The translations under genes and the position numbers were made by a program. From positions 62,001-126,000 of the forward strand of contig WIXG01000050.1 of NCBI GenBank assembly GCA_009869945.1: DNA of 64,000 bases, read 5' to 3'. Below, in pieces: positions 28,886 through 53,500 of this stretch; position 1 is the first letter of the stretch; every line of letters begins with the position of its first letter. This DNA is from Mesaphorura yosii (taxonomy: Eukaryota; Arthropoda; Collembola; Poduromorpha; Tullbergiidae). The notes under the pieces were generated by a model. That model was not told the DNA's origin. It searched no databases and saw only the letters and a program-made list of their open reading frames with translations.

Positions 28886-30259
28886 TTACGGCTGATCGGA
28901 ATATCGTGACATTTTTTGCTTGAACAATTCTTTAATCGCGTACCCATTTGCTATTCCAATTCCCGGTTTGGGCTCTGTCACCACCAGCGTTTGCTTATCA
29001 TCATTGTTCAAATCGTGAGCGTGACCATCCCGCACATCATCGTCGTCTGTGTTGAGCGTGACGTGTCCGATGCTGCATTTCTTCTTTTGAACCTTCCCCA
29101 GGGTGCCGTTGGTAGAAGGGATTTCCATACTCTTCAATGTGATGCAGTAGTGAATTGTCTTTGACTTCGACCTGCTGTAGGTGTTATCAAATTGTAGGAT
29201 GTAAGTCCCAGGCTTCGATAGCCGAACGGAGCCCTCCTGCTTCTCTTCATGTGAATTAACGCGTGAATACTCTACCAGAAACTTTGACTCGTCTTGATGG
29301 CAAATGGCGAATCCAATGTCGTACGAGTCGGTGCAGAATCGCCACGATAAGAGGGATTCGACAAGGTTTCCATTCGGTCCAAAGTCGTCGACCAAGTATT
29401 CAAATGATAGGCATTCCCTCGCGTTGATTTTAACCGTGAACCACTCGTCACCGTTCTCGTCAAAGTTGGACGCTTGTTTCCGCATGTAATATTGTGGTAA
29501 AGGCTCTTGGAACCACGAATCTGAACAGAAGTCATCGCAACCGGGTCTTGTGCCGCCCCAATACTTTGGCAGGACGTCACTTGGCATGACCTTGAGTAGG
29601 GCGTCCAACCATTTCTGCCGATCGGAATTGAAAATCTGAATCTTGTCCAGAGTTCTTGAGTGCAGGACTGGCTTGATGATCGCAAAGAGAATGTTGAAGA
29701 TTTTCGGGGCATTTATGACAAAGGCGTGCTTCAGCACCTCCGGGTAATTTGCTTCAAAGACGCGGAGAACTTCCACCATTCCTTGAATCACGCTTGGGTG
29801 AGCAAGCTGACGATACGAGAACCCGTCGAAATCGAGGATAACAACGCCCTCGTAGATTCCAATCTCGTTTCCGGTCGAAATCATAATTTCCAAGCACTGA
29901 TAAATGAATCGCAGTGCGGGAAGCATGTCGCCCGACTCGATGCAGCTGCGGATATCCCACCGTCCAAACGGAAGCAAGAAGACTGGAACACCATCGTAGT
30001 CAAGGTCGAGCGGAATGTAAGGAAAGAAAACTTTCGGGCTCCTCCAATCAAGCATTGCTTCAACCTCATTGATCCGTCGCCATACGAGGTGTCGACGCAG
30101 CATCTCCTCAGCCTTGTCCAGATCCAAATCACGGGCCCGCAGCCAACGAATAAGCTGTTCATTGACTCCCGGATAAATCTTGTCAACACGCGCACGGAAC
30201 TGTTCCAGTTTAAGAAGTTCTTCTGGAGTGAATTTGCTGCTCGATTTCAAGCCGGACAT
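28886..30259 (-). CDS. SEC14-like CRAL-TRIO/GOLD lipid-transfer protein
   Basis: An intronless reading frame of 457 residues from the ATG at 30259 (MSGLKSSSKF). In order: a CRAL-TRIO N-terminal helical region (LIRWLRARDLDLDKAEEMLR), the CRAL-TRIO lipid pocket (YEGVVILDFDGFS, NYPEVLKHAFVINAPKIF, LPKYWGGTRPG) and a C-terminal GOLD domain (FLVEYSRVNSHEEKQEGSVR, PGTYILQFDNTYS). This is the architecture of SEC14L1-4 (tocopherol-associated protein type), cytosolic proteins that carry hydrophobic ligands. The tail after the GOLD domain is polar and low in conservation. Lack of introns in a region of intron-rich genes suggests a retrocopy origin that stayed functional. TTTATT on the plus strand near 28792 is a minus-strand poly(A) signal. 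Codons upstream of 30259 in the frame lie outside the homology. Confidence 0.92.
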   Translation of the reverse strand: MSGLKSSSKFTPEELLKLEQFRARVDKIYPGVNEQLIRWLRARDLDLDKAEEMLRRHLVWRRINEVEAMLDWRSPKVFFPYIPLDLDYDGVPVFLLPFGRWDIRSCIESGDMLPALRFIYQCLEIMISTGNEIGIYEGVVILDFDGFSYRQLAHPSVIQGMVEVLRVFEANYPEVLKHAFVINAPKIFNILFAIIKPVLHSRTLDKIQIFNSDRQKWLDALLKVMPSDVLPKYWGGTRPGCDDFCSDSWFQEPLPQYYMRKQASNFDENGDEWFTVKINARECLSFEYLVDDFGPNGNLVESLLSWRFCTDSYDIGFAICHQDESKFLVEYSRVNSHEEKQEGSVRLSKPGTYILQFDNTYSRSKSKTIHYCITLKSMEIPSTNGTLGKVQKKKCSIGHVTLNTDDDDVRDGHAHDLNNDDKQTLVVTEPKPGIGIANGYAIKELFKQKMSRYSDQP

Positions 30260-32596
30260 TTTTATGTCGTTCACAGAAAATAAGAAAAGTTCTGTTACTA
30301 GTTCGCACATCAAGAGATTGGAACAAGAATGCAATATTCCGGTTTCGACGAATGGGAGGTGCTGACTTCCACGTTTGGATTCTGATCATTAAAAATCCAA
30401 ACGCTCAATCGCTTGCCATGTTGTCAGCCAGTTGGAACAATGACCGGATTCTATTGTTGTGTGATTACCGGCTATACCAGCCCATTTCGAGTTCGTGGGC
30501 GACCGATCGGTCATAACCACGTAATTAAAGTAAGAGCGTTGTGAAAATATGGCAACAAAGGCATGCATTTAATATTTAATGACTCGTAATCCGAAGATTA
30601 CTAGAACACTGGCATTCGATCACATGCACATAGATAAGTTAAAAACAATGATCATGGTTGAACACAATGCATTGCGTATTTATGGCCGGAAATGTGGAAA
30701 AAAAGCCCTGTTTTGTAGTTCAGCCCTTTACTCGTTGACTGGCTCCTTTACAAAGCCCAAAGGTGCTAAAAGGTGGAACCTGATTCTTATGTATTTGTAC
30801 GTTGCAATTACACCTTACTTTATAGTTCGTAAACCGTGGACACTTCGTTTTTGATTGACTGCATAAAGTTTCCAAAAACAAACGATTTAAACGGCCAAGG
30901 TTAATTAACATGCAAAAACTCCAATGCCTCATATATTCGCACAAAGCGAATGACGAAGTCAAAAATCCACGAATTCATGAACCATGAAGTTAAAAACAGC
31001 GCATCCACATGGCACGGCATGGCCATTGTCAATGCCATGAGGCCATGTCAGCCGTAGTCATGATCTCACTTTATGGCTCCAACATCCGAGACGTACACAC
31101 ATGGCTTCAGCTTTCAGCGCACAATGCCAATGCAATTTTACACGGGTAGAGCTTAGAACATTTGACATATACACATGGCAGGATGACGGCTGAGATTATC
31201 ATTATGTAACAAATTGCACAAAATGGAAAAGTACGTTCAATATTGTGACCCTGCGCATGCTTTCAGAATTAAAAAATAAGTGTGGGCAAGTGCAGTCTTG
31301 GCGTGACACTTGGCACGGGCACAGCAAGGCGGCACGAACCACGACCACAACGAGAGACACGAAAGACAGCAAGCATCTTATCGCACGTCGTTCAATTACT
31401 GGTTTACTTTTAGTCTGATTCTGGCACTGAATCCGAAATACCGATTTTAAACAAACAAGAATAAGGAATTACCCGTACCAATGTTATCGTTATGTAAGAA
31501 TCTGCTTGCTTTTTAGTACCTACTGGTATTGGCGATGTATCATGTCTTGCAGCGTCTTGTCTTTTGGGTATAGCGGGTTTATACAGTAACTCTTTCAGTA
31601 AATGATCATGTAACTATAAATACGTCGGTGCATGAGATGCGATGAGATGAGACTGTGGCCGCGACTGGCCGACTCCTGCAATGCTGAAAATTTTAAAGAA
31701 AAGTTGCACCCACTCAAATCAAAATGTTATGCTCTGCAAAACTTTTCAGTTAGTCAGTCTGTCGTTAAGTCGTTATATGCGTGCACTGCACGTTGAAAGG
31801 ATTCTCTTATTTTTGTGGGATTTCAGAATACGCTGAATGTATTTAATTTTCGAACTTTTAGCTGAAAACGAAGAGTTGCAGGAGATTCAGGGCTTCTTTG
31901 TGCTGTACGTCACGTACATTGTGCTGCTGATATGGCTTCAGTCTGAAGAGAACGCGTCGCTGTTCTAGACAAACCCTGAGTTGCCTGTGACTCTGGGCTT
32001 TCATTTGTAAGGTAAGCCTCGTAATCGTGTTGACAATTTCACACTGTTATGCTGGGTCATTCCTTGAGCAATCAATTGCAACCGGAATTAGAATATTTCT
32101 TGAGGGTTTGCTTTGCCTGATTATGTGCATATTTTAAGCGACTGTTCACCTCCTGCCTGCGAGAGAACAGCTTAAAATAAATTTGCACTGACAAAATGCA
32201 GTAAATGCAATGCGCCTTGCTGAATTCATTGAGAGCCATGGCCCACGGCTCACCACATGGTGAGGTTCCATTGTGTGCTACATTAACTAACATACGCTGC
32301 AGTCAAATGAATGCTGTTAATGTTTATGAGCTGGGTTGAGTGTTGAGTCATACCACAAGCTTTATCGTGAAACAATAAATAGACAATTGGCACTTGAACA
32401 AGCCATCAGATTAAATTTCTGAAAACAAGCATCAACTCCAGTGGTAAATTCGTGCTTTGCAGTGTCTGCGTTTGAGTTATCGCAGTGGTTTAGTGTCTTG
32501 GGACCGAGCAAGGCTGTGCTCAACTGTTAACTATTGCGCACTATTGTGTAGTTTTGCCAAACTTCCTTCTATACTGGCATAAAGTACTGTGATGTA
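30260..32596. other. Intergenic region with an orphan exon-like fragment
   Basis: Promoter of the SEC14-like gene on the left and of anoctamin on the right. The stretch 31000-31180 is dense in CATGGC-type motifs. An exon-like fragment at 31862-31968 is listed separately. No complete gene seen. Confidence 0.45.
31862..31968 (+). pseudogene. Orphan terminal-exon-like fragment with a transmembrane segment
   Basis: After a splice-acceptor-like CGAACTTTTAG the sequence reads ENEELQEIQGFF followed by a hydrophobic helix (VLYVTYIVLLIWLQ) and stops at TAG. It looks like the last coding exon of a membrane protein, but no upstream exons were found nearby. It could be a gene relic or a chance frame. 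Confidence 0.3.
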
Positions 32597-35500
32597 ATGT
32601 CAGCAACCGTCGTGAGTGAAGAAACAGACGTTACAGCCGGCAAGAAATGGAAGTTTAGAAATCTAGTCAACGCTCTTTCACATTTGCTCTGGAAATCCGC
32701 GTGGATGAAGGTGGACAGGGTGGAAAGTGTTCCTCATGATATCAGCAATCACAGCCACAGCCTAAATGATGACATGAACGTCAATTACGCCAATATTTCG
32801 CGAATTAGAGAAGGTATGCAATTTGTATAGCTTTGCACCGTTTCATACATCACATGCAAGTTCAGTTACGCACGACAAAGCCTTCATGCTTTGTGCGACG
32901 CATAGGCGTACGGTTTACTCGTTAATGGTGTCCAGTCTGCTATTGTTCCATTGATGTGCAGTCTTTTAATAACAACTCACTCCAAATTTTCATATAGAAG
33001 TGTAAGAACACCAGCTAATAGAGTAATAAATTACCAAGTGCCATGGATTCTTCGCCATTAGGAGGAGGAAGAAAATGTTGACGAAGGTCATGATTGGCGG
33101 CGATATGACCAGCACTTTTCCGTTGATTCATCAATCACCAATCATTACATTAATCTACGTTTGTTATTACAGACAAAGACGATAGTTCTGCAGAGGAATC
33201 TGAGGACTCGCCTAATAGCGACTACAGCCTCGAAGGTGCCGACGCAGGAATGGAGAACGGGGTCCTCACGAATTTTGACGTTGATGATACAACCAATCTG
33301 GAAAGTTTAATCTACGACGCGTCGGCAACCAATCCGGCCGCGTTTCCTCCAACTTATTTGGTTGTACGCTTGGGACCGAATATTAAACCCGAAGCTGTGG
33401 CGTGGCTGGCCAAAAAAATCAGCGGTAAGAAACAAGATGGCGGAGCTGAATTGTTGGCGCGATGCGAACCGTTCACAAGTTCCGGGCAAAAGCGGCAGGT
33501 ACGAGTTTATCTAGCCGGCACGGTTGAAAGTTCATCCCTAAATCGAAATGTTGACCCGCAGGGAATTGTTCTGCACGTAACAGCGAGCAAGCTAAAGTTC
33601 TTAGAAGTCGCCGAGTACCTCGAACTGAAGAAAGTAGACTGCAATGGAGTACTCAGAGAATTCTCAGTTGTGGACTTGGACAACTTTTTATACAGAGACA
33701 TACATTTGGATACTTTACTCACGCCCGCCGAGAAGCAAATGATTGTTATGCATGAGTTAGAAAATATTCGCGCACAAGCTGGCGAGGACTCGGTGCCAGG
33801 TTATCCGTCTTCTGTGCTGCACAAAGGACAATCAATTCGTAAGCTTCTTCTTACGTCAGTTCAAGTCGTAGGGAAATCTAAAAGTACCCTCGTTAATTCT
33901 TTGCAGTCGAGGTCTACTTAGAAGAAGGGCTTGTTGCACACGTCTTTCCACTTCACAATGCTCCTGAACTGGAGGCTTTAGGTGCAAAATGGTATCTCGC
34001 ATTCTTTCAGGCACAACCTTTCGGTAAGTTTCTCGTGTGGAAAGCAATCCAGCCGGGCATTTACGGCCAGGACAAGAAATGAATCTGTCGCCTTTGCAGA
34101 GGACATCCGAAGGTATTTCGGTGACGCACTGGCGCTCTACTTCTCATTTCTTGGCTACTACACGACCTCACTCTTTGTGCCTGCTGTACTTGGGCTGATT
34201 CAATTCTTGCTCCCAGAATCTTCTGCATCGTCAAACAGTCTAGTCTTCTTTTGTGTGTTCAACGTGATATGGGTCACAATCTCACAAGAAATCTGGAAGC
34301 GGCAGTGCTCAGAGCTGGCCTATGTCTGGGGTAACTTGCGGATGACGAAATGGGAAGAGCCTCGAGCCAACTTCAGAGGCAAAATGGCCATTGATCCGGT
34401 CACGGGGCGTTATCAGCCAAGGTATCCGTGGTGGAAGACTGCAGCAAAGGTATATCGTAAATTCATACATCAATGAATGAGGGTTGACTAATGCAAGAAA
34501 ATGAAATCCAATTTTCGTTGTATTAAACAGGCATATTGTGTCTCTCTACCAATTGTCCTACTATGCCTTCTTGGTTCATTCTGGATCATGCTGTACTCCT
34601 TCTGGATCGAAGAATTCTTGATTGAATCCAAGCAACGTCACGGGTCAAAGATGGCTGGAGTGTTTGTGATGCTCCCGAGCATAATTTATGCCGCGTTGGT
34701 GTGGATTATGAACTTTTACTATAGGAAGTTCGCGAACTTTCTGACTGAATGGGGTAAGTACGACTGTCTTTGCGATAAGCGATTTTACATTCACAGAAAA
34801 AAAAACGTTCACGGTCAATTTCAGAGAATCACCGAACACAAGGGCAGTTTGAACGACATCGTGTCACAAAACTCGTGCTATTTGAATTTGTGAACAATTT
34901 CATGTCGCTATTTTACATTGCGTTTTATATTCAGGACCTGGATCAACTTCGTTATGTAAGTCATCTTTTACGGTACCGTACACAGAAGTCATTCAAGAGC
35001 GTGCAAGTGACCAATAAATTTTGCCTTTCTAACAGCAAGTCACTGTGATGCTAATCATCATGCAGTTTATCAACAATTTCCAAGAAGCACTGATGCCGCT
35101 GATAATAAAGAAAGGATATAATTGGGTACTTGAATTTTCCAAAAGCAAATCTTTCGTAGAAGCTTCCGGCATGTATGATTTGTAATTTCTTGCTGCGCAG
35201 TCAATAGGCTATCTCACGGTGAAGTTTCCGAAATACTTCCGCCAGCCGAGCGTTGAATACGATGAGAAAAGGCGGATGTCTGAAGCGAATTATACAAACG
35301 ATTTGGATCCTGTTTGGTCTCCGGCAGCGCTTGGACTGCAATGTTTGCAGCATGGCGACCCTCGAATAGAAAACTGTAGAAGTGAGAGTGACATGGACCC
35401 GTATGAGGTAAATTAAAGAGCCATGCAGACGTTGCGGCAGAATGTGAGAAGGAAGATTCTTGACTCTTATCCTACTTGTGCAGGGAACATTCGACGACTA

Positions 35501-36276
35501 TTTGGAGATGTTCATTCAGTTTGGGTACGTCTTTTTATTCAGTGCCGTGTACCCGTTGGCTGGTGTTTGGGCCGTGGTGAATAATTTGCTGGAAATCCGT
35601 GCGGACGCATTTAAGCTCTGCAAAGTGTATCAGAGGCCCACAGCGAAGCGTGTGAAGGACATTGGTGCTTGGCAGGTATAAATTCAGTTATACCATCTCT
35701 CTCCACAAGCTATTCGTGGCGAATGTACATATCTGTTAAGATATTTGTACTATTTTATCTTAGATTGCATTTGAGATTATGGGAGGCATCGCCGTCATTA
35801 CGAATTGTGCCATCTTGAGCCTCTCTCCAACGCTGAGATCCTACGCTCCAAACATGAACTCGGTGGAGTGGGTGCTTCTCTTTGTGATTATCGAACATTT
35901 TCTGTTGGCCCTCAAATTTGGGCTCCGGGAATTAATTCCCGATGTGCCTTCCTGGGTCAAGATTGCGCTGGCAAGGCTTGAATATCAATCCAGACAAGCA
36001 CTGAAAAATGAGGCACGTTTCTTCAGTTTTGCTGTACTCTTTCGAAACCTAATATGTAAACCATGTGAATTGATCCATTATTTTACATTTCAGCAAGCGT
36101 TCAAGGCCAGACGCCAACTCACTCGTAGATTTAAGACGATTCATGTGGCAAGGCAGAAGAAAATGGGGATAAATGACTCCTTCAGGGCGAATACAACGGA
36201 TTCAGCGACAACAATGACGAAGAGGAAGAGTAGGAAGAGTTCCGGTAGCAATAAAAAAATGAATTCTTTGAGTTAA
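32597..36276 (+). CDS. ANO10: Anoctamin-10 like (TMEM16 family)
   Basis: Ten exons (32597-32813, 33173-33838, 33907-34023, 34100-34449, 34531-34753, 34825-34955, 35036-35125, 35201-35407, 35484-35675, 35764-36276) join to 901 residues. After a long cytosolic N-terminus, the TMEM16 core follows: [89 protein letters not shown] and [17 protein letters not shown]. These last blocks match ANO10 best. TMEM16 proteins are Ca2+-activated channels or lipid scramblases; ANO10 is linked to Ca2+ signalling and cerebellar ataxia in humans. The basic C-terminal tail ([14 protein letters not shown]) is unusual. The last exon can be read through; an alternative splice at the ATTTCAG near 36093 is possible. 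AATAAA at 36391. Confidence 0.92.
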
Positions 36277-36676: not shown

Positions 36677-39661
36677 ATGGAATCGGGCACCGAAGAAATT
36701 GTGATCTCAGGAATATCTGCCCGATTGAGTGGATGCGCCGGGCTGCAGGAATTCTGGTTTAAGTTAATGAAGCCTTCGACCAAGATTGGTGATGCGGAAC
36801 TGAGAAATGTAAGTGTTTCAACTGAAAAAAGTGGCATGGCCTGTGATGTCCTGGATATTCTGATCGATGTTTCAAGAGAAGCCATTCTTGATTCCGGTAA
36901 GATTCCATTAATTAAACTTCAAGCAAAAGTTGTGTAGTCAGTCCCCGTTTCAGGTGTAAACCCTGCGTCTTTGAAGAATACCAAGACCGGCCTGTTTTTG
37001 TCCTGCAACAAAGCAGAATCAAATTCAGAATTGCCCATAGCCAGTGGATTGTCTTCGTACTACAGATTTTCTGGTCCTCTTTATTCCGCGCACTCCAGCA
37101 GCACAGTTCCTTCACTGATTTCATTTCAAGAAGCATGCCAATCGCTGTCCGTGGCCAGGGCCGAAACTGAAACCTCGTATCAAAACGCTCTTGTTGGATT
37201 CGTTGACATTCAAAGTAACGGAGAGCACGCGGATGTGAATGTGATTTTCGTTCTACTACAAAAGGCGACCATTGCAAGACGGTGCTATCTTTCCGTACAT
37301 TCAGTTCATTCCAGCAGCAAGAATGCAGCTGGACATTCCGCCGGCGCCATTGCAAGCCTCCGTGAACTTTTAAATCAAGCTTACAGGGACAACGAATGGA
37401 ATAAACTCAGTTATATCGAAACATGTTTTTCGGCATCAGTGGAGGAGGAAGCGTCAAGCGTCTCAGATGAAATACGAGCCATCCTTGAAGTGTTTAGAGG
37501 TCACACCCACACTCACTCGCAGGCTTCGCCGCAGGGCAATGGCGACATGTCTTATCGTAGGACGCCGCTGTTCATTGCGAGTTCAGCATCAGAATTCAGA
37601 GGCAGCAATTATCTAGGAGGACCCTGCTCCATTTTGAAGCTCATTTTGAGTCTGCACCATAAAATATTTCCTGGAAACGCAGATCTGAAGAAGCTTTCTC
37701 ACACCGTTCAAAATCCTGAGGATGTTCAGGTAAGATTATTGCCGGTTGCGGCTGTTTACTGACAGTAACTGGCTTAGGCAACATTTTCTTGTAAGCAAGC
37801 TTCCTGGAAACGTCTCGGAACAAGTCTCCGGAAACAATAAATTATCTGCGGACAATTTGTCCTTCTGAATGATGTACACATACATCTGCGACACTCACAA
37901 TAAGCTAGAAACTTGTATTTCCAATAATGACTTTATTCAAATTATTTGTTGTGCAGATTTTGGCTGAACCAACTTCGATCAACCTGCCTGGTACCTCCAA
38001 CGAAGGTGCAGCTCCTGTCGTATTTTTGTTTGGAATCAATGCAGTTGCAACTGGTTCAGCCATGCATTTGGTCTTGAGATATACGGAGGGCAAAAATGCA
38101 AACGCTTGCGGTCACGGTCACAACAGTTCTCTTTCTACGCTACCAGCTCTAATTCTTTTTACTAGCAAAAGCCGGGAGCAACTTGAAAGCATTCTCGCGA
38201 AGGTATTTAATGCAATTTAATTGCCCTTTAGAAAATGTGCAATTAATTTCCCGGTGTCCTTTAGACTGAATCTCAAAATCGGAATCTTGAATTGGAAACG
38301 CTAATCAGGGCGGCGATGGAGGAAATGGATGATGACGAAGCAAGTCAGAAATTGTTCCGTGGATATTTGCTGAAATCTGTCAGCGAACCGACCACCGGAA
38401 TTGTTACTTCTATGCAAGTAGGCACTGCACTGTACAAAATGAATTGAAAGCATTTATCAGTAGAAATTACCTTATGACTTGCATAATTGAATTTATAGGA
38501 AACGCCGCCAGAGAAGCGTCCACTGTGGTTTGTGTTCTCAGGCATGGGAACACTGTGGGAGAAAATGCTGAGTGATCTGATGAATTTCGAGATTTTTGCA
38601 AGTAGCATCAGAAAGGCGACGGAAATCATGAGGCCATACAACATTGACTTGTTCGAGATCCTTTCAGAAGGCAGTGACTCGCTCTTGGATCGGTACATGG
38701 GCGTGTGCTTCATAGCAATCGGAGTAAGTTCTTGGTACATGTGAACAATCTGTGGCTACCTCAAATTCTTACTTTCTTACATGCGCATTATCCTGAATAG
38801 ATCGCCCTCACTGAACTCCTCATTGCACTGGACCTGAAACCTGACGGCTATTTGGGTCATTCTGGTGGGGAAATACTTTGCGCGTATCTTGACGGCTGCA
38901 TTACGCAAGCTGAGGCGCTCGTTGCGTATTTTCACAAGGACGAATGCGTACTGGAGTGCAGAGACGGTGCAATGGCGTCTATTCAGTTAACTTGGGAGCA
39001 AGCGGTGAAGAAATGCCCACCTTGGATATATCCGGCATGCCACAATTCGAAAAACAATGTCACTATCGCGGGTCTTGCGAAAGACGTGACCAAGTTCCTC
39101 GATAAAATCAAGACTGAGGAAAATATCTCCAGTTCGCTCGTGAATACAAGTGGCGTCGCCTACCACACGCGGTATTTGAAACCAATTTGGCCGAAATACG
39201 AGTCCCTTGTGCGGTCAGCGGTCACAAGCATCAAGCCGAGGTCAAGCAAGTGGTTGAGCACGTCTATACCACAGAAGGATTGGGTCACAAAGCCGTACAC
39301 CGGAATGGCAGATTATCTGCTTCACAACATGATAAATCCAGTGTTATTTTATCCTGTCCTGAAGAACATCCCGAAGAATGCGGTCGTGCTGGAAATATCA
39401 GCCAATTCCTTTTGCGTCAGTTCCATCGAGAAAAGTTTACCACGAACCTGCACCGTGTTCGGCTTAATTAGAAAAGATGGCCGTATTGCACCACGTTCTG
39501 GTGCAGCTAATGCCAATAACACGTGTGCAGAGCAATTCCTGAATGCAATTGGAAAACTTTACCAATTTGGAATGAATCCTAAAATTAATTGCATTTACCC
39601 AAAAGCGGAATACCCGTTGCGTGACAGCAGCATACCTGTGCTAAGTCAGTTTCTAGTTTAG
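36677..39661 (+). CDS. Truncated FAS-like protein, degenerate ketosynthase plus acyltransferase, copy 1
   Basis: Six exons (36677-36896, 36954-37729, 37957-38202, 38265-38417, 38499-38723, 38801-39661) join to 826 residues. Residues about 5-440 follow the fatty acid synthase ketosynthase (EIVISGISARLSG, then YRFSGPLYSAHSSS), but the active-site Cys is Ser123, EAHGTGT has become IETCFSA, and GHPE has become RGSNY, so all three catalytic residues are lost. Residues about 455-826 are the acyltransferase: PLWFVFSGMGTLW, YLGHSGGE (Ser561), CHNSKNNVTIAGL, VAYHTRYL (His662). The Arg that binds malonate in animal FAS is Lys586. The protein ends just after the acyltransferase; no dehydratase, reductase, carrier or thioesterase follows. 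Probably cytosolic; substrate unknown. AATAAA at 39689. Confidence 0.85.
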
Positions 39662-40083
39662 CTGGTTAAGATTAATGTTTATAAAGCCAATAAAATTGAA
39701 GCACCTGCGAGGCATTGCATCTTTTCGAATTGACATGTGAATTTTTGAAGTGCTATTTCCCAGAGTAAAATCGAGTCTGAGGTCGACTTCCGCCTTGATT
39801 TATGAATGCATTCTTCAATTCGTCAAACGCCATAACTTGAGAAATGCCAAATGCATAACGGGAGAGCTACGCTCTTAACTCTTCACATTAAAGAAGTCTC
39901 GTAATTATACGAGCAAAAAAATTCAGCAGAGATTTCGAAAAGATTCTTTACCTTGAAGCAACGGAAAATTTTGCTCGTTTTACGATGGGAAGGAATAAAT
40001 AAATGATGACTGACTGTACAATGCTCAGTCTTTTTCCGTTCAGTACTTCAATCTGAAGCAGTGACTGTGAGTCGCGGTTGAAA
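39662..40083. other. Spacer between FAS-like copies
   Basis: 422 bp with AATAAA at 39689-39694 for copy 1 and no coding sequence. The presence of a poly(A) signal and a fresh start at 40084 argues for two genes rather than one long synthase. Confidence 0.55.
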
Positions 40084-42757
40084 ATGTGTTCCTTGAGCAT
40101 GGCGACTACTGATTCTGTCAACGACAATTCGTCGGTTGTTATATCCGGTATCTCTGGCCGCTTTTCAAATGCGGAAAATGTAGAAGAATTCTGGGACACC
40201 ATCCTTAAAGCCAGAAAAGGTAAGTTTCAAGTCTTGCGTGCATAGAGCTTAAGCTTGAACTTTAAAATGTAAATACTTTCTAAGCAGTAGAAAATGGGCG
40301 TAACTTCGTTGGAAAGAAACTGAAGAATGACCCAAATCAGATGGATGCCGAATTCTTTGGTCTGCACTCTGGCAATGTAAGTGCTGCTACCAGGCAATTA
40401 CTGGAGGTCATTTACGAAGCCATTCTGGATTCTGGTGAGTTCTGGAACTGGAGCGTTTGACCTCGCAATTCATGGTCGCTTTCGTGTGTAGGGACTTCCT
40501 ACTCAGAACTATGCCAGAAAAAAACTGGACTCATCGTGGTTTGTCCGCGCACACTTTCAAACACTGACACACAGACGCGATTGTGCGATCGAATTGCTAC
40601 GGTCTTCAACTTTCAAGGGCCCGTGCTTTTGTTGGACAGCAAACAAGTATCTTGTTTGCGTGGTCTGCAAAGTGCATTTGATGCGATTCAATCTGGTCAG
40701 TGCGATCGTGCAATTGTGGCTGGAGTTAATCTGCACTTGGCCACGGAAGAAAACGAAGAAGCTATCGAAACCAAGGAGGAGGAGTTCGTGGCTGCCGTCA
40801 TGATCCAAAAGCGACTCGGAGCCAAGCGAGAGTATTTGCGCATTGTTGACGTGATTACGACAGCTGCCGACGTCACTAGTGCCGGTTCCGATACTTCTTC
40901 GGAAAGAACACTCGAACACGAGAATGATTTCGTCAGCCTAATCAAACTGATTTTGCACGTTCAACACAGCGTGAGGCTCGCACCAGAGACTACGAGAGAA
41001 GGCTTTGGATTTGCCGTAGCCTTGCCCGAAATGAATCAAAATCAAAATTTTGTCGAATTGCGTTTGGTCCAACAGGATTCCGAAGGGCAGACACGCGTTG
41101 TTGTGAAGGCTCCTTCCAAGCCTGCAAAAGTAAGACGAGTGTCTTCTCCGATTCCGGTCTTAATTCCAATCGCTGGTCGGACGAAGGTTGGAGTTCATGA
41201 TTCGATGCAGAAGGTAACCAAAACCAACAAACACTATGTTCTGTCAATAAATATACAAACCTTCAGATTTTTCATGTCGTTATAAGGCGAAAGAAATGAA
41301 ATGTCAACGACGTCTTGGCTTCTTTTACACAGATTTTATTTCATCCAAGAAATGCCCAATTTGACTCATTACTGCAAAAAGTTACGGAAGGCGACCAGTC
41401 CTCCAAACCTTCTTCTCCGTCTCCAGCTTGGTCAAATCCTGTACGAGGGTATTTGGTACGAGGAGAAGGATCAGTGGACTCCAGCTACAAGGTAATGCAG
41501 GATCAGCATGCATACGTAATCTGCGACCGAAACGAATGACTTCAACTCGCACGCTCAGATGCTCAACAATGAATTATTTACTCTTAAGGAAGTACCGGCT
41601 CAAAAGATGCCATTGTGGCTGATATTTAGCGGAACCCCGGGCTCGCTTTGGCCAGGAATGACAAACAATCTAATCAAGTTCAAAGTATTTGCGGACAGCA
41701 TCCAAAAATCGACGGAAATCCTAAGACCTTTTGGCATTGATCTGAACGGGATCTTAATGAAAGGAGACGCTGCTACACTTAACCGATATTTGGGGACAGG
41801 CTACATCGCAATGGGCGTAAGTCCGGTTGACTCTCGGTTAGATAAGCTTCTAGTCTTCTAGCTTACAAGGCTCGATCTATTTAAATCACAAACTCTGTTG
41901 CGCAGATTGCATTTATCGATGTTCTCCGCGAGATTGGAGTCGAAACTGACGGCTACATTGGACACTCGGGTGGAGAACTGCTGTGCGCCTATTTGGACGG
42001 TTGTTTATCCCATGAAGAGGCTCTCGTCTCCTACTTCTGGAAAGATGAATGCGTGCAGAGCTGCCTGGGTGGAACCATGGCCTCAGTCGCACTGACTTGG
42101 GAACAGGCATTGAAGAAATGTCCGCCTTGGATTTATCCCGCGTGCCACAATGCGAAGAATAATGTAACCGTCGCAGGTCTCGCAAAGGACGTGCCAGCGT
42201 TTCTGGCGGACCTGAGGGCAGAAGGCGTGCTTGGAGTTGAGGTCAATTCCGCAGGCGTCGCGTACCACACGCGGTACTTGAAACCAATGCTTGCGACATT
42301 CGAAGCTAAGCTTCGAGAATTGATTAAGCCGGAGACTGTCATCAGGCAACGCTCTAAGAAGTGGATTAGTACTTCAATTCCGGAGAAGGATTGGGCCAAA
42401 ACCCAGAGCCAAGGCGGCGATGACATGGTGGACTACATTGTCAACAATATTAAGAACCCCGTCCTTTTCCATCCTGTCCTCAAGCATATCCCGCATCATT
42501 CGGCTGTGATTGAAGTTTCTCCAAACGCACACATGATCGCCATCCTTGAAAAGGCTCTCGGCAAGACGTGCGCTGTGTGGGGCTTGGAAAAACAAGATGG
42601 TGGAAATAATGCCACGCAACTTCTGGCCGGAATTGGCAAGATTTATGAACACGGATTCGACGTGAAGGTCGCCAAACTGTATCCTGAGATGCCGTTTCCT
42701 GTTCAAATTGGAACGCCGATGATTTCACCGCTGCTGACTTGGAATCGTGCTAAATAA
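40084..42757 (+). CDS. Truncated FAS-like protein, degenerate ketosynthase plus acyltransferase, copy 2
   Basis: Six exons (40084-40219, 40288-40434, 40492-41213, 41333-41491, 41559-41816, 41906-42757) join to 757 residues. The ketosynthase part begins SVVISGISGRFSN and reaches the active-site segment GPVLLLDSKQVSCL, where Gln146 stands in the Cys position. The HGTGT region is missing and the last His motif is shortened. The acyltransferase part has IFSGTPGSLWPGM, IGHSGGE (Ser495), CHNAKNNVTVAGL, AYHTRYLKP and FHPVLKHIPHHSAVIEVSPN. Lys520 replaces the malonate-binding Arg, as in copy 1. It ends within a few residues of the end of the acyltransferase (ISPLLTWNRAK). A second in-frame ATG lies at 40099. 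The poly(A) signal AATAAA overlaps the stop codon. It is a diverged tandem duplicate of the gene upstream. Confidence 0.85.
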
Positions 42758-42758
42758 A
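42753..42758 (+). terminator. AATAAA overlapping the stop codon of FAS-like copy 2
   Basis: The last codons GCT AAA TAA A contain AATAAA, so stop codon and poly(A) hexamer share bases. If used, the mRNA would have a 3'UTR of only about 20 bases. Another A/T-rich stretch follows at about 42790. Confidence 0.4.
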
Positions 42759-42947: not shown

Positions 42948-45411
42948 CTAAAGACCTAGAATTTCATTCTCATCACTTGTGCCAACATCTGCGTCTGCTG
43001 TTTCGTTGCAGGGAGCTGAAACGCCTGCATTGTATAGCGTTTCTGAAACAAGTGGCGTAAGTATACTGTTGGTGCTGTATGTCGAAGTTAAAGTGGTAGG
43101 AATAAACACGATGTTGTTACTGTTAATTAGAAGACTTTGTGCTGACTGTGTCTGCGGGAAAAAGGGTTCTGAGATAACAGATCTTAATGGGCCGACCGTA
43201 TCAAAAGTGTGAAGGTTTCCCATGCTTGGATTTGTGGTCATCACCACTGGGCCATTAGCAATCGGAGTACTTGACACAGAGAAAGACGACGGAGTCCAAG
43301 CGAGTGGATCTACTGCAGGGGCTCGATTTAGCAGGCGACCAGTACTTGCTGAAGTTCTGAGCTTGTTAAAGACCGTTACTTCCTCTGGTGGTTTCGGTAG
43401 GATTGGCTTATGGCTGTGAAGGACTTCTTCATAGCGGCGCTTGGAGTTTGGCGATGCCATTGATGCCGTTGTCATTCCGGATTGTGCTGTTGTACTGTTC
43501 ATTGCTGTCGAGATTGGAGTAAGCGTAGCTCTAGGTGGATTTAGTAAAATGACTGAGTTCTGCGGCGGCGGCGCTTGAGACATTACGTTTGTGATCACGG
43601 GGTCATTTTCTCGCAATGAGGTAACACTGACTATGACGGGAGTTGCAGCGGCTGACGAGCTTAATATTCTTATTTGAGGACAACTGACAGAGGCCTGAAG
43701 CCGTGAACTCCCAGACTGGCTTTGCGGAATGATTGAAATCGGCGGCGCTTTATCTACTTGAGTTTTGTCTTCTGGCGGCTGACTTTCTCGGAAGTTTAAA
43801 TTGTACCGGCTGACTTTTTTCGAACCTTTTCTTAGGGGTGCGTACCGTTTTGGAGAATGTTTTACGAAATTGGGGTTGCTGTTGTTAGATGGGTTGTCAT
43901 TCACACGGATGTTACTGTTATTAAATGCTCTGTGCGTCGAACTGCTGGACGCTGTGCCATTGAAATTACTGAAGGACTTTGACGACCTCAACCCTGTCAT
44001 TGTCGCCGCGTCGGATGGCGTTATGTGAATCACATCATTCTCTCTACTTTTCTCGATGGGTTTGTGTTTCGACGCTGCGATATGCTTGTGTTGCCGACTT
44101 GGTATGAAGAGATTTGTGTCTGAATTTGAATTCGAAGTCGGAGTAATTGTAGTACCGAATCTTTTTAAAGCTGCGGCTGTTTGTTCCGGGAGTGGTATCG
44201 ACATTCTCGGCTTCTGAGTGTATAAATTGTGAACTCTACCAACTACCGTTTTCGTTTTTGTAGCTGTCAACAGCGGTGACAAAGAATTAACTCTCACAGA
44301 AGGTTGACATGTGGTAGATGAACTGCTAATCTTCGGAACAAACTCATGTTCATCGATAGAATTGGGTGGCGGTGTTGAAAATCTTGTGGGAGCTGGATTT
44401 TCTTGGCTTTGATTGTCTTCGGAAGTACAGCTTTTGTCTGGTTGAGAGGAAGGTTTCTCGCAATGTGCCGTCTTCGTTATCACTCGAACATGAGTACGTT
44501 TCAAATGACGCCGTCGTACTTTGTGGTCTTTTCGAGAAGAAGCACTTGATGTCACACCGGCTTCATCTCCTGGAACATTTTCTGGTGGCTTTTCGGCGGC
44601 TGCATCAAATAATTCCACAATATTCATTAGAAATGGAACACTGTAGCTGGAGCGCGTAAATTGCTGGATGAAATCCTCGTCGTCGATATCAACTGTTGAA
44701 CAAATTAGTTCCTTTATGCACCAATTAAATAGTTAATTAGATTCACCTGCTCCGTTAACTAAGTTAACTTACACGGCAGTCCTTTGCTTTCACCACGATT
44801 CGATAGGTACTTCTCTCGCAGGTGATCATTTATGTTGTACGACTCAAGCCCGTCTACATAAGGAGTAAAAAATGTCAGAACCTTACTCAACCAATTCAAG
44901 GAATTAATATTTCGCATTCACGTTACCTCTCACGTTTTTGTAATGGTTATGGGCATGGGTCGCTTGACGTACAATAAACTTCTTCTTTAGCACATCAAGT
45001 TTAACCTGTGCTCTGACTTTTGGAATGCTCTTCAGGTATTCCTCCTGTTCTTCCTCATCTATCTCTGAAAATTGAGCCAATGTGCAAAATTAAAATTATT
45101 ACTTATGGCGTCGTGAGAGATTCTTGCTTACCAGTGCCAAATAAAATCTCCATTTTCTCCTTCAATGCCAGTAAATCAGAGTCATCACAAGGAAATGATA
45201 ATCGCGGGATACCATCACCGTCATCGTCAGTAACGTCACCCGCCCGCCTTGGCGGCATTCGTTCATCGTTATCGTCACAATTTTCAATCGTCATCCGCTC
45301 TGGTTCAACATCACAAATTTCAATCGTCGTCCGTTCTGGTTCATCATCATCGTAACAATCTTCAATCGTCGTCCGCTCTGGTTCATCGTCGAACCAGACA
45401 GTAGCAGCCAT
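42948..45411 (-). CDS. Large unrecognised protein with acidic repeats and disordered Ser/Thr/Pro-rich tail
   Basis: Four minus-strand exons (45411-45132, 45064-44927, 44853-44773, 44692-42948) join to 747 residues in phase. The N-terminus has three near-repeats of EPERTTIE followed by acidic residues. A short conserved-looking helical region (residues about 75-190) reads LALKEKMEILFGTEIDEEEQ, KVRAQVKLDVLKKKFIVRQA, THAHNHYKN, DHLREKYLSNRGE, then DIDDEDFIQQFTRSS. The remaining ~550 residues are Ser/Thr/Pro/Asn rich and probably disordered, with basic patches (RKDHKVRRRHLKRTH; KRYAPLRKGSKKVSRYN) and a final acidic tail. It could be a scaffold or nuclear regulatory protein; I do not recognise the family. 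The helical block is the part to search. Start: first ATG in frame (MAATVWFDDEPE). Confidence 0.7.
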
Positions 45412-46984: not shown

Positions 46985-49900
46985 TCAAATGACGGAAGTG
47001 ACGGGGAAGCTGTCCATGACGACGACGACCGACTCGCGATGTGACTGTAGATTCGGGTGAGATTTCTGACTTGTCGCGTTGCTTGTGCAGTTTGTATTGT
47101 TTGTGGTATTTGGCTCGCAGGTGCATCTGACAGTTCTACAGCCGCCGCCATCACCCGCACGACGTGGGTTCGCCATTCCATGACGAAGTCGATGACTGCT
47201 AACACTCCATTTCTTCCTATCGCTCACTGTTGTGGTGGCTGCTACTCCCGTACGGGCTTCTTTCCAACCGCAGCAGGCCAGCATGGACCGGTCCTGCAGC
47301 AGACATAATTTCTGATTCCCTTTTGAATTCCTGTCGTTTCCACTGCCACCGCTGGTACGATTCCCTCGAGTGTAATTTCCATACACGAACGGATTCACAC
47401 AAGAGTTGGCGACGGCCATCATGAAAAGCCCGTCCTGGAGACCCTTGTTCAGTTGCTTAGCAGATTGGCGATCAAACATGTACCTGCAAAGAAAAGAACA
47501 AGTTAAATTCGCTTATTTTGATACCTCGCGCTTCGATTAACCGTTAAATTGCCTCTGTCCCGACCCGAGCCACTACAGACTGTTCAGGGAATTGATTAAT
47601 TCCTTCCTACCTTAGATCAAAGGGTTCCACTTCTCAATAATCACGCCGCGCATAAACACTTACCAGAGCACCATCACCACGTACGGTGTCCAGGAGACGA
47701 CAAACACCAGCACAATTATGAAAGTGAGGCGAAGTATTTTCCACTTTGCACGTGCCATCATCTGGACTGCTGCGTCATTCGTGGAGCTCATCGCATTCCC
47801 GCAAAGGGTACAAGTGGTTGTAGTTCCATTAGCGGCATTTGAACTCGGGCCGCTATGATTGTGAGTCTGGCTCTGAATATGGGTATGGCCTTGGCCGAAT
47901 CGTGATGGATTCGTACTGGCGTTTGCCTTCCTTTCCATCGCCGCCATCGTCGTCGTATTCCGCCGCAGCAGAATCACTTTCGTTGAGCCAAAGTCTTGTC
48001 TGTCTTCAGTGGTGGTGGAACCAGCCTCGGGCCCAGTTCGTAGGAGTTGGCGTCGAACCGAAGCCACTTGCTGCCTGTGCTCTCTGGATTTCCTGACGAT
48101 TTTCCACAGAATCATTGAGTATGAGAAGACGATGACGGCCAGCGGGATAAAGTACATCCCAAACACCGAGAACAGGCTGTAAATCATCTCATCCTTCTCC
48201 GTTGTCAGAAAGTTGTAGGTCACGCACTGCTGGAACGTCGTGTACTTGGGATGGCGTTGGACGCTGAAGACGAGACTCTGGAGAGGACAAGAACAAACTC
48301 TTGAATTATTAAGCTAGAATAATGAAATACCTGAACGAAAATGCAATGAATACGAGTCTAGGCAGTCAAGCGTGAAGAATCTCGCTCAGTCTCAAGAGGA
48401 AGGCTGCCAGGCGACCCAAACTTTAATCAACGAGTTCAAGGTGCAACCAGAGCATGGCGATATGATAGCATGTAATTATTTCCGAGTTCTGAGAGACAGC
48501 TGCTTGGAGCCAGGTGCCGATGCAATGAGAAATGGAAAATATGACGTGGCTGTGATGAGGAAATGATGCGATCATAAAGTTTTAATAAAATTCTGCACTG
48601 TTTCATTACATTCATAAATGCGGGCGCATAAAGTGAAAGAGATACAGGCGGATTCTTCTGCATTCTGAATCATCCGTTGCCTGTTAGCGTAGCGTGGACA
48701 GTAATTTGATTGACGCAGTTTCTAAAATGCAATTCAGGTTTTACAAGAAACCGAATCTGATTCCATAAATTCCGTGACAAGGAGAAAATAGACGACGGAG
48801 GAGGACGACCGTATCGTAAATTCTCATTATGCAGATAAAATTAGCCAAATTTTGCAGTCTAGAAGTCAAAAGCCTGTGCTCTGCTCGAAGCTGGTCGCCA
48901 GCAGCACATTCTGTATTAATTTAACAAGAAATCATCATTTCATTTCAGGCGTTCATGAAAGTTTATTGGAATTAGGAGCTTTGTTCGTTAGACATTTCAT
49001 TACACGGTTGCTTGGCGCTTAGAAGCGCTACCCTCGTCGTGGAACGAAGAGCACGAACAAAAGCATGCAAAAGCAGCAGTTTAGGAGTCCAGTATTCTGT
49101 ATTCGCATTTGTCAGGCATCCGGCTTCTTGCTTACGTAAATTGAGTTAAGCGTAGCCGTCCATTATGCATGGATATGGAACACGGCCTGGCCTTTCCCGG
49201 ATAAACTGGATCGAAATTTCGACTCGAATTTCTCAGAAACTCAGTTCTCAGAAATAACACGTTTATAACTCATTTGGCTTCTTATCCCGATGTGTATTTG
49301 TATTAGCATATAGCCTTTCCTTGGAATTGGCTCTGGCTTGTTTTTGTGTCAAGTGCGAAGCGTCAAATGTGAAAGTAACGAAACTGGCGTTACTAAAAGT
49401 AAGCACAAGCAGCAACTGGGATCAGACTTTAGACAACTCAATAACAAATGCTGATGCACGTAAGTAGATGTAAACATGTCGTTGATCGTGATGGAGAAAT
49501 CGTGTGACGGCTCCATTATCTATCTGTCTCCACTATGCTCTGTCACGTTGTCATCTTATTTATGCGCAGAAAAATGGAGGAAGGCATTCAAGCACTCCTC
49601 TCACGAAAAAGTCGAAAGGGGTATATCGCATTACGTGTTACGTATTCTCAATTTAGAAATTGGGAAACTTCATTGCAAATTAAATTCTATCTTCAATATA
49701 AGTATTGATGCTGTTGAAACTGTTAGCCTTTCGCCCTAATAGTGAAGACTTGGAGTGAAAATAAATCATAACGACAACAACGAGACACAACGCTAATCGA
49801 ACCATGGCCAGCGGGCGATGAAAATGTGAAAAAGGAGACCCGAGACGCAGTAAGACAAAAGACGAAGACAGTTAGACGTTAGACTGATTGGCAGGTGTTC

Positions 49901-50543
49901 GGAGCCCAAAACGGAATAATACATCCGCTCTTAATGTCTTAATGCATAATTCCAGGAATAACTACACAATACAATGCCCTACCTGAGGAGCTGCCGCAAC
50001 CGCCGCACAAAGCCAGGCTGCCGCGAGCATCGCCTTCACGCGCCGTCCACCACGCACCATCCTCAGCGGGTAAACAATAGCGTAAAGACGGTCCACACTT
50101 ATCACGACGATTATCATAGAACTCGCGTAGAGTCCAAATGCGCGGCCAAACTGCACCACTTTACATACAAAGTCTCCGCCGTACCACTGAATCGTGGACC
50201 GCCAAATGATTTCGCTGGGGATCACGACAGTAATTACGAGAAGATCGGCCAGAGACAGGTGGATGATGAGGATCGTGATGCGCCACTTCAGCGCAAGTCG
50301 GTGGCGGTAGAAGGAAATCAGGACGGAGAGATTGCCCGTGACGCCCAGAAATAGGAGGATCATGTAAAAGAAGATTGTGCGGAGGGAAGTTGGCGAGATC
50401 GCCGTGTACTCGAGGGGAAGGTTGAGATCAGAACCGGAATCTGAAGTTAATGACGAGTTGGGGTTGGACGTGTCCGTTAAGATGTCGCCGTCCGGTGCCC
50501 AAGAATTGTTGCCGAAGAGTAAATTGGGATTTTCGAAAGCCAT
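46985..50543 (-). CDS. Neuropeptide GPCR of the GnRH/AKH/corazonin superfamily
   Basis: Three minus-strand exons (50543-49983, 48277-47664, 47483-46985) join to 557 residues. A glycosylatable N-terminus (NNSW, NSSL) is followed by seven hydrophobic helices. Diagnostic features: LSLADLLVI in helix 2, the helix 3 Cys in [32 protein letters not shown] after helix 3, and the extracellular loop [20 protein letters not shown] leading into helix 5, typical of GnRH, adipokinetic hormone and corazonin receptors. Then [14 protein letters not shown] in helix 6 and NPFVYGNY (NPxxY) in helix 7. Intracellular loop 3 is long, with CTLCGN and low-complexity stretches. Which ligand it binds cannot be decided from sequence alone. 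It couples to G proteins at the plasma membrane. The first intron is 1.7 kb, among the longest here. Confidence 0.9.
48278..49982 (-). other. Long intron of the neuropeptide receptor
   Basis: About 1.7 kb between exons 1 and 2. Only short frames on either strand (63 and 87 codons on plus) and no repeat copy seen. Its length, against a typical 60-100 bp for this window, makes it a candidate for enhancers. Confidence 0.5.
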
Positions 50544-53500
50544 GTTGATGTTTATCAATTCAGGGATTTAGCGTTTATCACTTTTAGCCTTTCTGCGTTA
50601 ACACTTTTCACATTTGACATTGACCGTGACCGTCACGGCATTCTGAACCTTTCACCTCGAAGCCTTTAATCACACTGACTTGTCTTTGACTTTCACATCG
50701 TGACATAATGCATTCACAATGCCAGGCCTTCTTTCTTGTGTCTTTATGTAATGAGAGTGGTGATAAAACTCAAGGTTATGACAGATGATGGTGATGGAGA
50801 AAGTTTTTATCTCATCCACGGCCACAACTGTCGTCTACAAGTCATAATCGAGAGTCAAGACGACGCCTTGCTTGAGATTGCACTCTCGTGCACTTTTTCT
50901 AATCTAATCTGCTCTCTGTTGACAACCGACTTACGACTACGACTGCTTTTAGTTTGGTTTGGTCTGTGTAAAGCGAGCAATGTCAGTAATGTCAGCAATC
51001 TATTTTTGTGCTCCACCAGAGACCAGACCACCGCTGTTGTATGCGGTCTCGTTATTCCGTTATTCCAAGCTCTTGCTGCTCTGAATTGAAGAACGCGCGA
51101 TGTCGATGAGCGATGTGATCTCGGACGAAGCTCTCATTGAATTGTATCCGATTCTGAATTTTTGCAACAAACTAGAACCCGAGCAGAGTCTTGGTCTTGA
51201 ATCTCAGTGTTCAGTTCTCCGCGATGGAATGCAATGCAGAGTTCGAGATCCCCGCTGATCAACCATTTTGCCCCATTGTATTGGTTTCACACCCAATTCA
51301 CTTGCACACCATTTCGCGTTCACGATAAATTGAGCTTGGAGTCGGAGTCTTCATCCGATTTGGTAAGCGTAAAGTTGATAAATGCTAAGACGACTAAGTG
51401 CACCGGGTTGAAGGTAAAACTATTCTTTCCACTTCCGCTGCTTATATATTTGTGCAATGAAAGTCCCTGCTTGTTTCCACGAACTTTCGCAGGTGAAAGT
51501 TGGAAAGTGCAGTTTAATATGAAATGACAATGGGACCGCAGTTCGTAGTTGGGGTCTCGGGCTGCTGCACTGGAGCAAATCTTGCAACAGAATTTTATAA
51601 AGCCTCCAATGTCAATTCTGGATTAATGAAGAGCAAGAGTAGAAGCTCTTCTTAATAATGGATCACAGGAGTTGATGTTGATGTTGATGGGTGTAGAAGT
51701 TGACAAAGCAAAGTAAAGTGCAAAGTATTTGTGCTACTTCCATTAACAGCCCCAACGATTGTAATCTTCTCGCCTCCTTTCATTCCGCTTTCTGTCCGAG
51801 TTTAGAATTTTCTCTTTTGTTCTTTTTATTGCCAGTACGCTTTTCACTTCGCGTGAAAGATGTGTTGTGCCTTCGCTTTTCGTGAAAAGCGTGCACTTAA
51901 ACACTCGAAATCTCAGGACTTATGGAAGTTCGACTTCCAAACACTTAACTTGCATTCGCATTTTGGAACCTGTAAGCAGCAGATGTGCAGGCGCCTGTTG
52001 ATCTCACTTCAAGCCTTCACTATTTAACGAGAGACGACGACAGGGTCGCATCGAGGCTTAACGACGGCACATCAGTTGGCACAGTACTACGGTGGGTTCA
52101 ACTGGCACAGCACTGGTACGGCTAAGATAAACATCAAAGAAACAGATTAGATAGAACATTCTCGGATGTCGGATATCTAGTTCCAAGGATTCCTTAGAAC
52201 TAGACTTAAATTTCGAGTAGTTCCTGTTCGAACTCAAGACCTGATGAACAATGCTATTGAATTTTGAATTCTTTAAATACTTTTACTTTGTATTCACTGC
52301 ACTCTACGCTTTCGAGTTTTAAACAACTCAATACTCAACAAAGCACAGCCACTACGCTGGGTTCAAAGGGAATTGGAAGCGTCCAAGACTTTAACCGGAA
52401 CGGATTGAAAAAAGTTTAATTCGGATGATCTGAGCAAAGCAAAGGGTGAAGATTTACTTGGAGTACGAAAGCTTAGCAGAAAATCGGACCGGAATCATTC
52501 CAGGCTAACAACCACTGAACTTGAACTGCGCACTGCGATTTGCGGGTGAGAGCGAGAAGAAGAATTGAGAAGAAAATGAAATGATGAAATGAAAGCTTTG
52601 GAACACGAACTGAGGCAATGCGAGAAAAAAGCGAAACAATATTTGATTTGAATGCTGAACGTGATAGTCACTTAAATTCCATTCAGAGACGGACTCAGAG
52701 AATTCAGAATCATGTCATAAATGCATTTTTCATCATTATTTCGAAAGTGCCTATTATTTGCTTCCAGACCATGGGCAAAGCAAAGCTATGCTGGCAGATC
52801 ACATCTCGAACCAATTTCTCATGGCGTAAGATGTATTATTAAAAAGCAAAAGGTCCTGGTAAGTCCTAATACATTTTATTGTGTACACGTATGCCTATGC
52901 CTGCCTGTACACAAAGATACTGGCGGCAGTACGAATAACGAATAACTTTCACTTAATAATGCTTGAATGCGTCTTTAGAAAGAAGACGAGAAAAAGCGAA
53001 GCGCTTCAGACAGGAAACTTCCAAATAGAAATGGCTGATTCGGATTTTAGAAAACTTGACACGTTCTTCGAGTTTTCCAGTCTTTTGAGTTATTTTCCGA
53101 GATAAGAACTGAGAACTGAAATTGGCCTAAATATCTTGAGAGGATCTTGAGAATGTGACGCTGGGTTGACAGGAAACAGGCATAAAGTGCAAAAAGAAGC
53201 ATAGCCTCCGGTTAAAATGCGGATGGAGATCGAACACAACACAACGCGTCTTGAGACATAAGACCAAATAACAAGATTTCGGTTTCATGAGTCTAGTCTG
53301 GGTCTGGGTCGCGTCTAGAATCGTAAATTCGTGTTAGCTGCAAGCAAAACATTCGTTAGCGCGATCGAGCTGCTCGTGCTCGGTAATCTCAATTTCTGTT
53401 TTTGGCGAACCAGCCCTTTAGGAAAGGAAACGACCGGTTGACCTTGATAGAAAATAGCAGCGAAAGTAGGCACGATAGAAATAGATTCTTATCAATGTGG

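Follow-up and report, generated by a model that had tools for sequence, protein, structure and literature searches.

Two adjacent genes of the collembolan Mesaphorura yosii, which we call kat1 and kat2, encode two-domain proteins derived from an animal-type fatty acid synthase (FAS), and our analysis supports the conclusion that their acyltransferase (AT) domain has been preserved by selection and the catalytic residues of their ketosynthase (KS) domain have been lost. Both genes are arranged head to tail on the + strand of a 64-kb window (contig WIXG01000050.1, positions 62,001 to 126,000), to which all coordinates refer, and each starts with its own ATG. kat1 (36677..39661, +) has six coding exons (36677-36896, 36954-37729, 37957-38202, 38265-38417, 38499-38723, and 38801-39661) that encode a degenerate KS, a linker, and an AT in 826 amino acids, followed by a TAG stop codon and a polyadenylation-like AATAAA at 39689..39694 (+). 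kat2 (40084..42757, +) also has six coding exons (40084-40219, 40288-40434, 40492-41213, 41333-41491, 41559-41816, and 41906-42757, with an alternative donor after 41129 in exon 3) and encodes 757 amino acids in the same order, with a degenerate KS that lacks most of its C-terminal half; its TAA stop codon is overlapped by an AATAAA at 42753..42758 (+). The preliminary description of this region had proposed two KS-AT genes here that stop after the AT and carry their own start codons and AATAAA signals, and both the hand-built models and the Pfam matches confirm that these are real. The long open frames and six exons it reported for each gene were also recovered, with 826 and 757 codons and conserved GT-AG introns.

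Pfam scans, which reported matches with E up to 0.01, placed both proteins in the AT family PF00698, with scores of 163.6 bits for kat1 and 172.0 bits for kat2 (cut-off 32.7) and a conserved Ser-His dyad. The N-terminal KS domain matched weakly (26.4 bits in kat1 and 72.7 bits in kat2), and the KS C-terminal extension gave a below-cut-off match in both. No KS-C domain, DH, ER, KR, ACP, or TE was detected in either protein at this limit, and the complete KS-AT-DH-ER-KR-ACP(-TE) chain of animal type I FAS is therefore absent from both. The best relatives in the PDB were the KS-MAT portions of animal FAS (3hhd, 9b7z, and 5my0; best E 3e-87 for kat1 and 2.7e-106 for kat2), followed by the sacoglossan proteins EcPKS1 and EcPKS2.

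Judged from its aligned residues, KS catalysis is lost in both copies. The Cys-His-His triad of animal type I FAS is intact in all 12 other FAS-type paralogs examined (one on contig C191 and 11 more, not all of them proven to be full length). In kat1, whose exon 2 (36954..37729, +) encodes the bulk of the degenerate KS, the triad aligns as Ser, Cys, and Gly, although single aligned positions are uncertain at ~28% identity to the C191 KS; an earlier reading of Ser, Cys, and Ser agrees at the first two residues and differs at the third. The KS remnant encoded by kat2 exon 3 (40492..41213, +) has Gln in place of Cys (DSKQVSC) and a deletion of the HGTGT segment, both as first described, and Phe aligns with the second His. 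Among 75 invariant KS columns (occupied in at least nine of 11 paralogs, every occupied row agreeing with C191), 25 are kept in kat1 (12 gapped) and 22 in kat2 (27 gapped). The lesions differ between kat1 and kat2, contrary to the proposal that both share one pattern of degeneracy. KSQ decarboxylases of modular polyketide synthases (PKS) also carry Gln in place of Cys and keep both His residues. kat2 shares the Cys-to-Gln change but has one His position deleted with HGTGT and Phe at the other, so decarboxylase activity is not expected and we rejected a KSQ assignment.

The AT domains are far better conserved. Both GHSGGE and AYHTRYL, which contain the Ser and His that the preliminary description had found retained, are present in kat1 exon 6 (38801..39661, +) and in kat2 exon 6 (41906..42757, +), which encode the AT cores. 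Equivalents of Ser581, His683, and Asn738 (human FAS numbering, assigned by alignment, here and below) are present in both proteins, and of 36 invariant AT columns (occupied in at least 10 of 12 paralogs, every occupied row agreeing), 29 are retained in kat1 (2 gapped) and 32 in kat2. An AlphaFold model of kat2 exon 6, built from 11 sequences and leaving out the first ~70 AT residues, which belong to the preceding exon, predicts that this AT exon folds, with a mean pLDDT of 81.4 and a pTM of 0.77.

A new observation is that the ATs of kat1, kat2, C191, and a further paralog on contig C155 have a remodelled acyl pocket in common. All four have Lys for Arg606 (exon 6 in kat1), a gap at Phe553, and Tyr for Phe682, and the Gln of the GMGTQ motif is replaced by Leu or Val. 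In the other 11 rows of the alignment (10 paralogs and human), both Phe residues and the Gln are always present, and Arg606 is present in 10, the exception being Ala in a paralog on contig C418 (L040). kat1 and kat2 thus lack Arg606, a feature of FAS malonyl/acetyl transferases rather than of all PF00698 members. Mouse FAS uses Arg606 to hold the carboxylate of its extender substrates, with Phe553 influencing this coordination, and loss of the guanidinium group alters specificity (PMC6954729, available text). Reports on octanoyl transfer by R606A conflict between rat and mouse, the murine variant losing efficient octanoyl transfer (same source). Based on these substitutions, malonyl may not be a substrate of the four ATs, and the pocket suggests a substrate other than malonyl or acetyl, for example an acyl group that is longer or branched. 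A Lys side chain is still able to contact a carboxylate, so the idea that malonyl use has been lost is a guess. C191 and C155 share this pocket, so the change predates the two-domain form and is not tied to the free-standing state.

To place the two genes within the genome (93 Mb in 1127 contigs), we aligned 12 other FAS-type AT loci with them and with human FAS and built an AT tree from these 15 rows. kat1 and kat2 grouped together with support of 100/99, C191 joined them at 90/81, and C155 joined all three at 100/100. AT identity was 53% between kat1 and kat2 and also between kat2 and C191. Introns at alignment columns 109, 496, and 635 coincide exactly in kat1, kat2, and C191, and one at column 559 is common to kat1 and C191, with its kat2 counterpart at 549; the pairs kat1 413/C191 420 and kat2 48/C191 56 may also correspond. 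By these alignments, kat1 and kat2 are sisters, and their nearest relative is the C191 FAS paralog. Since introns were kept at shared positions, the genes arose by DNA duplication, not retrocopying. The C-termini of the two proteins fall only a few residues apart, in an exon that continues past the AT in C191, and we infer a single two-domain ancestor before the tandem duplication, which fits these near-identical ends. The C191 paralog (L039) has KS, AT, KR, and ACP matches with no TE match on its contig, and C155 (L022 and L041) has KS, AT, and KR matches with no ACP or TE match on its contig. Both have an intact KS triad beside the remodelled AT pocket, on contigs without a thioesterase match.

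Selection on the two genes was assessed with three-gene codon models (kat1, kat2, and C191; several starts, bounded parameters). AT sequences differed at 0.60-0.69 of 4-fold sites and 0.24-0.28 of second positions; synonymous sites were saturated in these comparisons, and Nei-Gojobori dS was undefined or saturated. The omega values below are rough because dS is saturated, several branch times ran up against their upper limit, and the KS sequences align poorly (24-33% identity), so the direction of the results is sounder than their numbers. A rough omega of ~0.06 was obtained for the AT, and fixing omega at 1 gave 2dlnL of 8.9 on the kat1 branch, 9.1 on the kat2 branch, and 173.6 on both. For alignable KS codons, the corresponding rough values were 0.18 for kat1, 0.14 for kat2, and 0.075 for C191, and omega of 1 on a single branch gave 2dlnL of 10.5 (kat1) and 12.0 (kat2). 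Neutrality of the linker was not clearly rejected on single branches (2dlnL 3.8 and 1.6), and the value for both branches was 11.9. These comparisons indicate that the AT has probably been under strong purifying selection after its separation from FAS. The KS remnant, too, is not just drifting freely, because its alignable codons are constrained.

The explanation we favor, with slightly less than even confidence and from one genome, is that kat1 and kat2 are tandem KS-linker-AT derivatives of a C191/C155-clade FAS that act as free-standing ATs. The 5' part of such a gene, encoding KS, linker, and AT, would have been duplicated at the DNA level with its introns, and the KS catalytic residues would have been lost after separation from the rest of FAS, differently in each copy, with the AT kept. 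The Ser-His dyad would take an acyl group from acyl-CoA, forming acyl-Ser; the acceptor in trans would then be either a carrier protein, which may belong to a C191/C155-type FAS, or water. We infer the catalytic activity, substrate, acceptor, and partner of the two proteins; their architecture, descent, KS residue loss, AT constraint, and pocket substitutions are computed. An AT-only function does not call for constraint on the alignable KS codons, and the KS remnant may have a structural role. A more specific and rather speculative version holds that these are trans-acting ATs evolved from type I FAS, with a dead KS remnant and a remodelled pocket, which would load C191/C155-clade synthases, in which no thioesterase was detected, with unusual acyl groups or edit such groups on them. 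Trans-AT logic is known from bacterial polyketide synthases, and the proposed animal system would be its counterpart.

Constraint on KS codons despite the loss of KS catalytic residues speaks for a pseudoenzyme regulator that binds intact FAS through its residual KS or linker, or sequesters acyl-CoA, and so modulates a C191/C155-type FAS. The KS provides the largest dimer-interface area in type I FAS (PMC6954729, available text), which also favors such a role. This alternative is nonetheless unlikely in our estimation, since little of the C-terminal KS half is left in kat2, making KS-type dimers doubtful, and both copies keep an AT Ser-His dyad that a binder would not need. Two suggestions in the preliminary description, a regulator that binds intact FAS and a free AT that uses the KS fold as a scaffold, are both poor fits for kat2 for the same reason, and the low number of retained invariant KS columns further weakens them; the constraint on KS codons speaks the other way, and a structural role is still compatible with it.

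A narrower form of the free-standing AT explanation, whose probability is contained within it, is that kat1 and kat2 are AT-fold acyl hydrolases that clear carrier proteins or CoA. Acyl hydrolases of trans-AT polyketide systems are a functional analogue. A retained AT dyad with no fused ACP would suit this activity, and C191 and C155, which have no thioesterase match, could benefit from release by an external enzyme. No sequence feature separates a hydrolase from a transferase, and we regard this form as possible but improbable.

Decay without function would account for the heavily degraded KS, the partial domain set, and the long AT end branches of kat1 (0.53) and kat2 (0.48), both of which evolve faster than C191 (0.22). 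Against this, frames and splice sites are intact despite saturated synonymous divergence, AT neutrality was rejected on each branch, and a simple simulation of neutral evolution starting from the kat2 coding sequence left none of 1000 runs open at any of four distances, the smallest being 0.1 substitution per site. The broken frames and neutral codon evolution of a pseudogene are thus not seen, and we consider it very improbable that the two genes are decaying partial duplicates. The earlier argument for selected function holds in this respect, and its own counter-prediction, that gene fragments would show dN/dS near 1, came out against fragments, as AT dN/dS is well below 1.

Least probable of all is that the kat exons, in models built by hand from DNA alone, are mis-modelled or belong to a larger transcript, spliced into other FAS exons or from kat1 into kat2, since each stop codon has an AATAAA behind or overlapping it and no downstream FAS exons of the kind that the preliminary description named as refuting were found in the window. 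We queried the 64-kb window with 14 frames taken from the part of C191 that lies behind the AT, and E never fell below 0.24; as a positive control, three of the 14 matched a control FAS locus at E < 1e-9. The 318-kb contig that carries both genes (C50) has no KR, TE, or ACP match, against at least 36 KR, 8 TE, and 33 ACP matches in the genome (for KR, 35 of 71 candidates were scored genome-wide). An open frame of 594 codons on the opposite strand (42948..44732, -), without a Pfam match, lies ~190 bases past kat2 and would close its 3' side if it is a real gene.

Several known systems resemble the two genes in part. Mammalian FAS KS-MAT has the same KS-linker-AT order, and its AT Ser and His are kept in kat1 and kat2, which differ in their lost KS residues, in a chain that ends at the AT, and in the changed Arg606, Phe553, and Phe682 positions. 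Because a crystal structure of the KS-MAT didomain exists (PMC6954729, available text), this region can be produced as a single piece; that didomain is a laboratory construct, whereas kat1 and kat2 are natural separate genes. AFPKs (EcPKS1/EcPKS2 and the arthropod and mollusc clades) are likewise FAS-related paralogs but are KS-bearing synthases, whereas the KS of kat1 and kat2 is dead. For mollusc AFPK mo-clade 4, only KS-AT-TE is predicted, and the available text of the same paper makes no mention of a KS-dead AT-only form among AFPKs (PMC10764717). The 800-amino-acid AaFAS-like protein of Aedes aegypti is short and FAS-derived, like kat1 and kat2, and has only N-terminal FAS domains; it differs in its reportedly intact catalytic motifs and KS-C, with KS, KS-C, and the C-terminal extension described, and its authors allow for assembly error or gene duplication (PMC9235097, available text). 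Among open-licence PMC papers, we found no KS-dead two-domain animal FAS paralog. Mitochondrial MCAT is a free-standing AT in animals, like the proposed kat ATs, but is not FAS-derived and has no KS remnant.

Candidate further two-domain copies on contigs C359 (L046), C617 (L047), and C467 (L045) looked like MCAT-like or PKS-type pieces instead. From its GQGTQ motif, we take L046 to be MCAT-like; L047 and L045 look like decayed AT pieces of PKS type, in which a stop or short frames occur, and contig C137, which has an AT match with three stops, may hold a further copy. The C418 paralog has an intact KS triad on a contig without KR, ACP, or TE matches (KR: 35 of 71 candidates scored) and is perhaps another shortened FAS. 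C1104 and C586 are candidates for a split FAS partner, one that has KR or ACP and lacks KS/AT. PKS-type frames free of internal stops, 1428 to 3211 codons long, occur on C799, C851, C225, C731, C632, C627, C641, C246, and C444 (L008-L014 and L016-L019); these long frames, which the genome has in addition to its animal-type FAS genes, may reflect horizontal gain, foreign contigs, or another origin. C420 has a 3156-codon NRPS- or PKS-like frame with three PP-binding matches and one thioesterase match. Pfam matches near kat1 and kat2 in the window were to anoctamin (33982-34476 and 35764-36276, +), a CRAL-TRIO/GOLD protein in one long frame (28886-30385, -), CAF-1 subunit A (8202-9473, +), and rhodopsin-type GPCR exons (47660-48313 and 49962-50567, -), and no lipid gene cluster was found among the 18 neighboring frames scanned.

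Animal type I FAS is the classic example of enzyme domains confined to a single chain. The sequence evidence suggests that kat1 and kat2 are free acyltransferases carved out of it. If true, an animal megasynthase can be dismantled by evolution, leaving a dead synthase half and a selected transferase half, and the pair would point to a step of its own in animal lipid or polyketide chemistry at which acyl groups are loaded or cleared. Four related ATs share one coherent change of the pocket, which poses a direct, testable question about their substrate.
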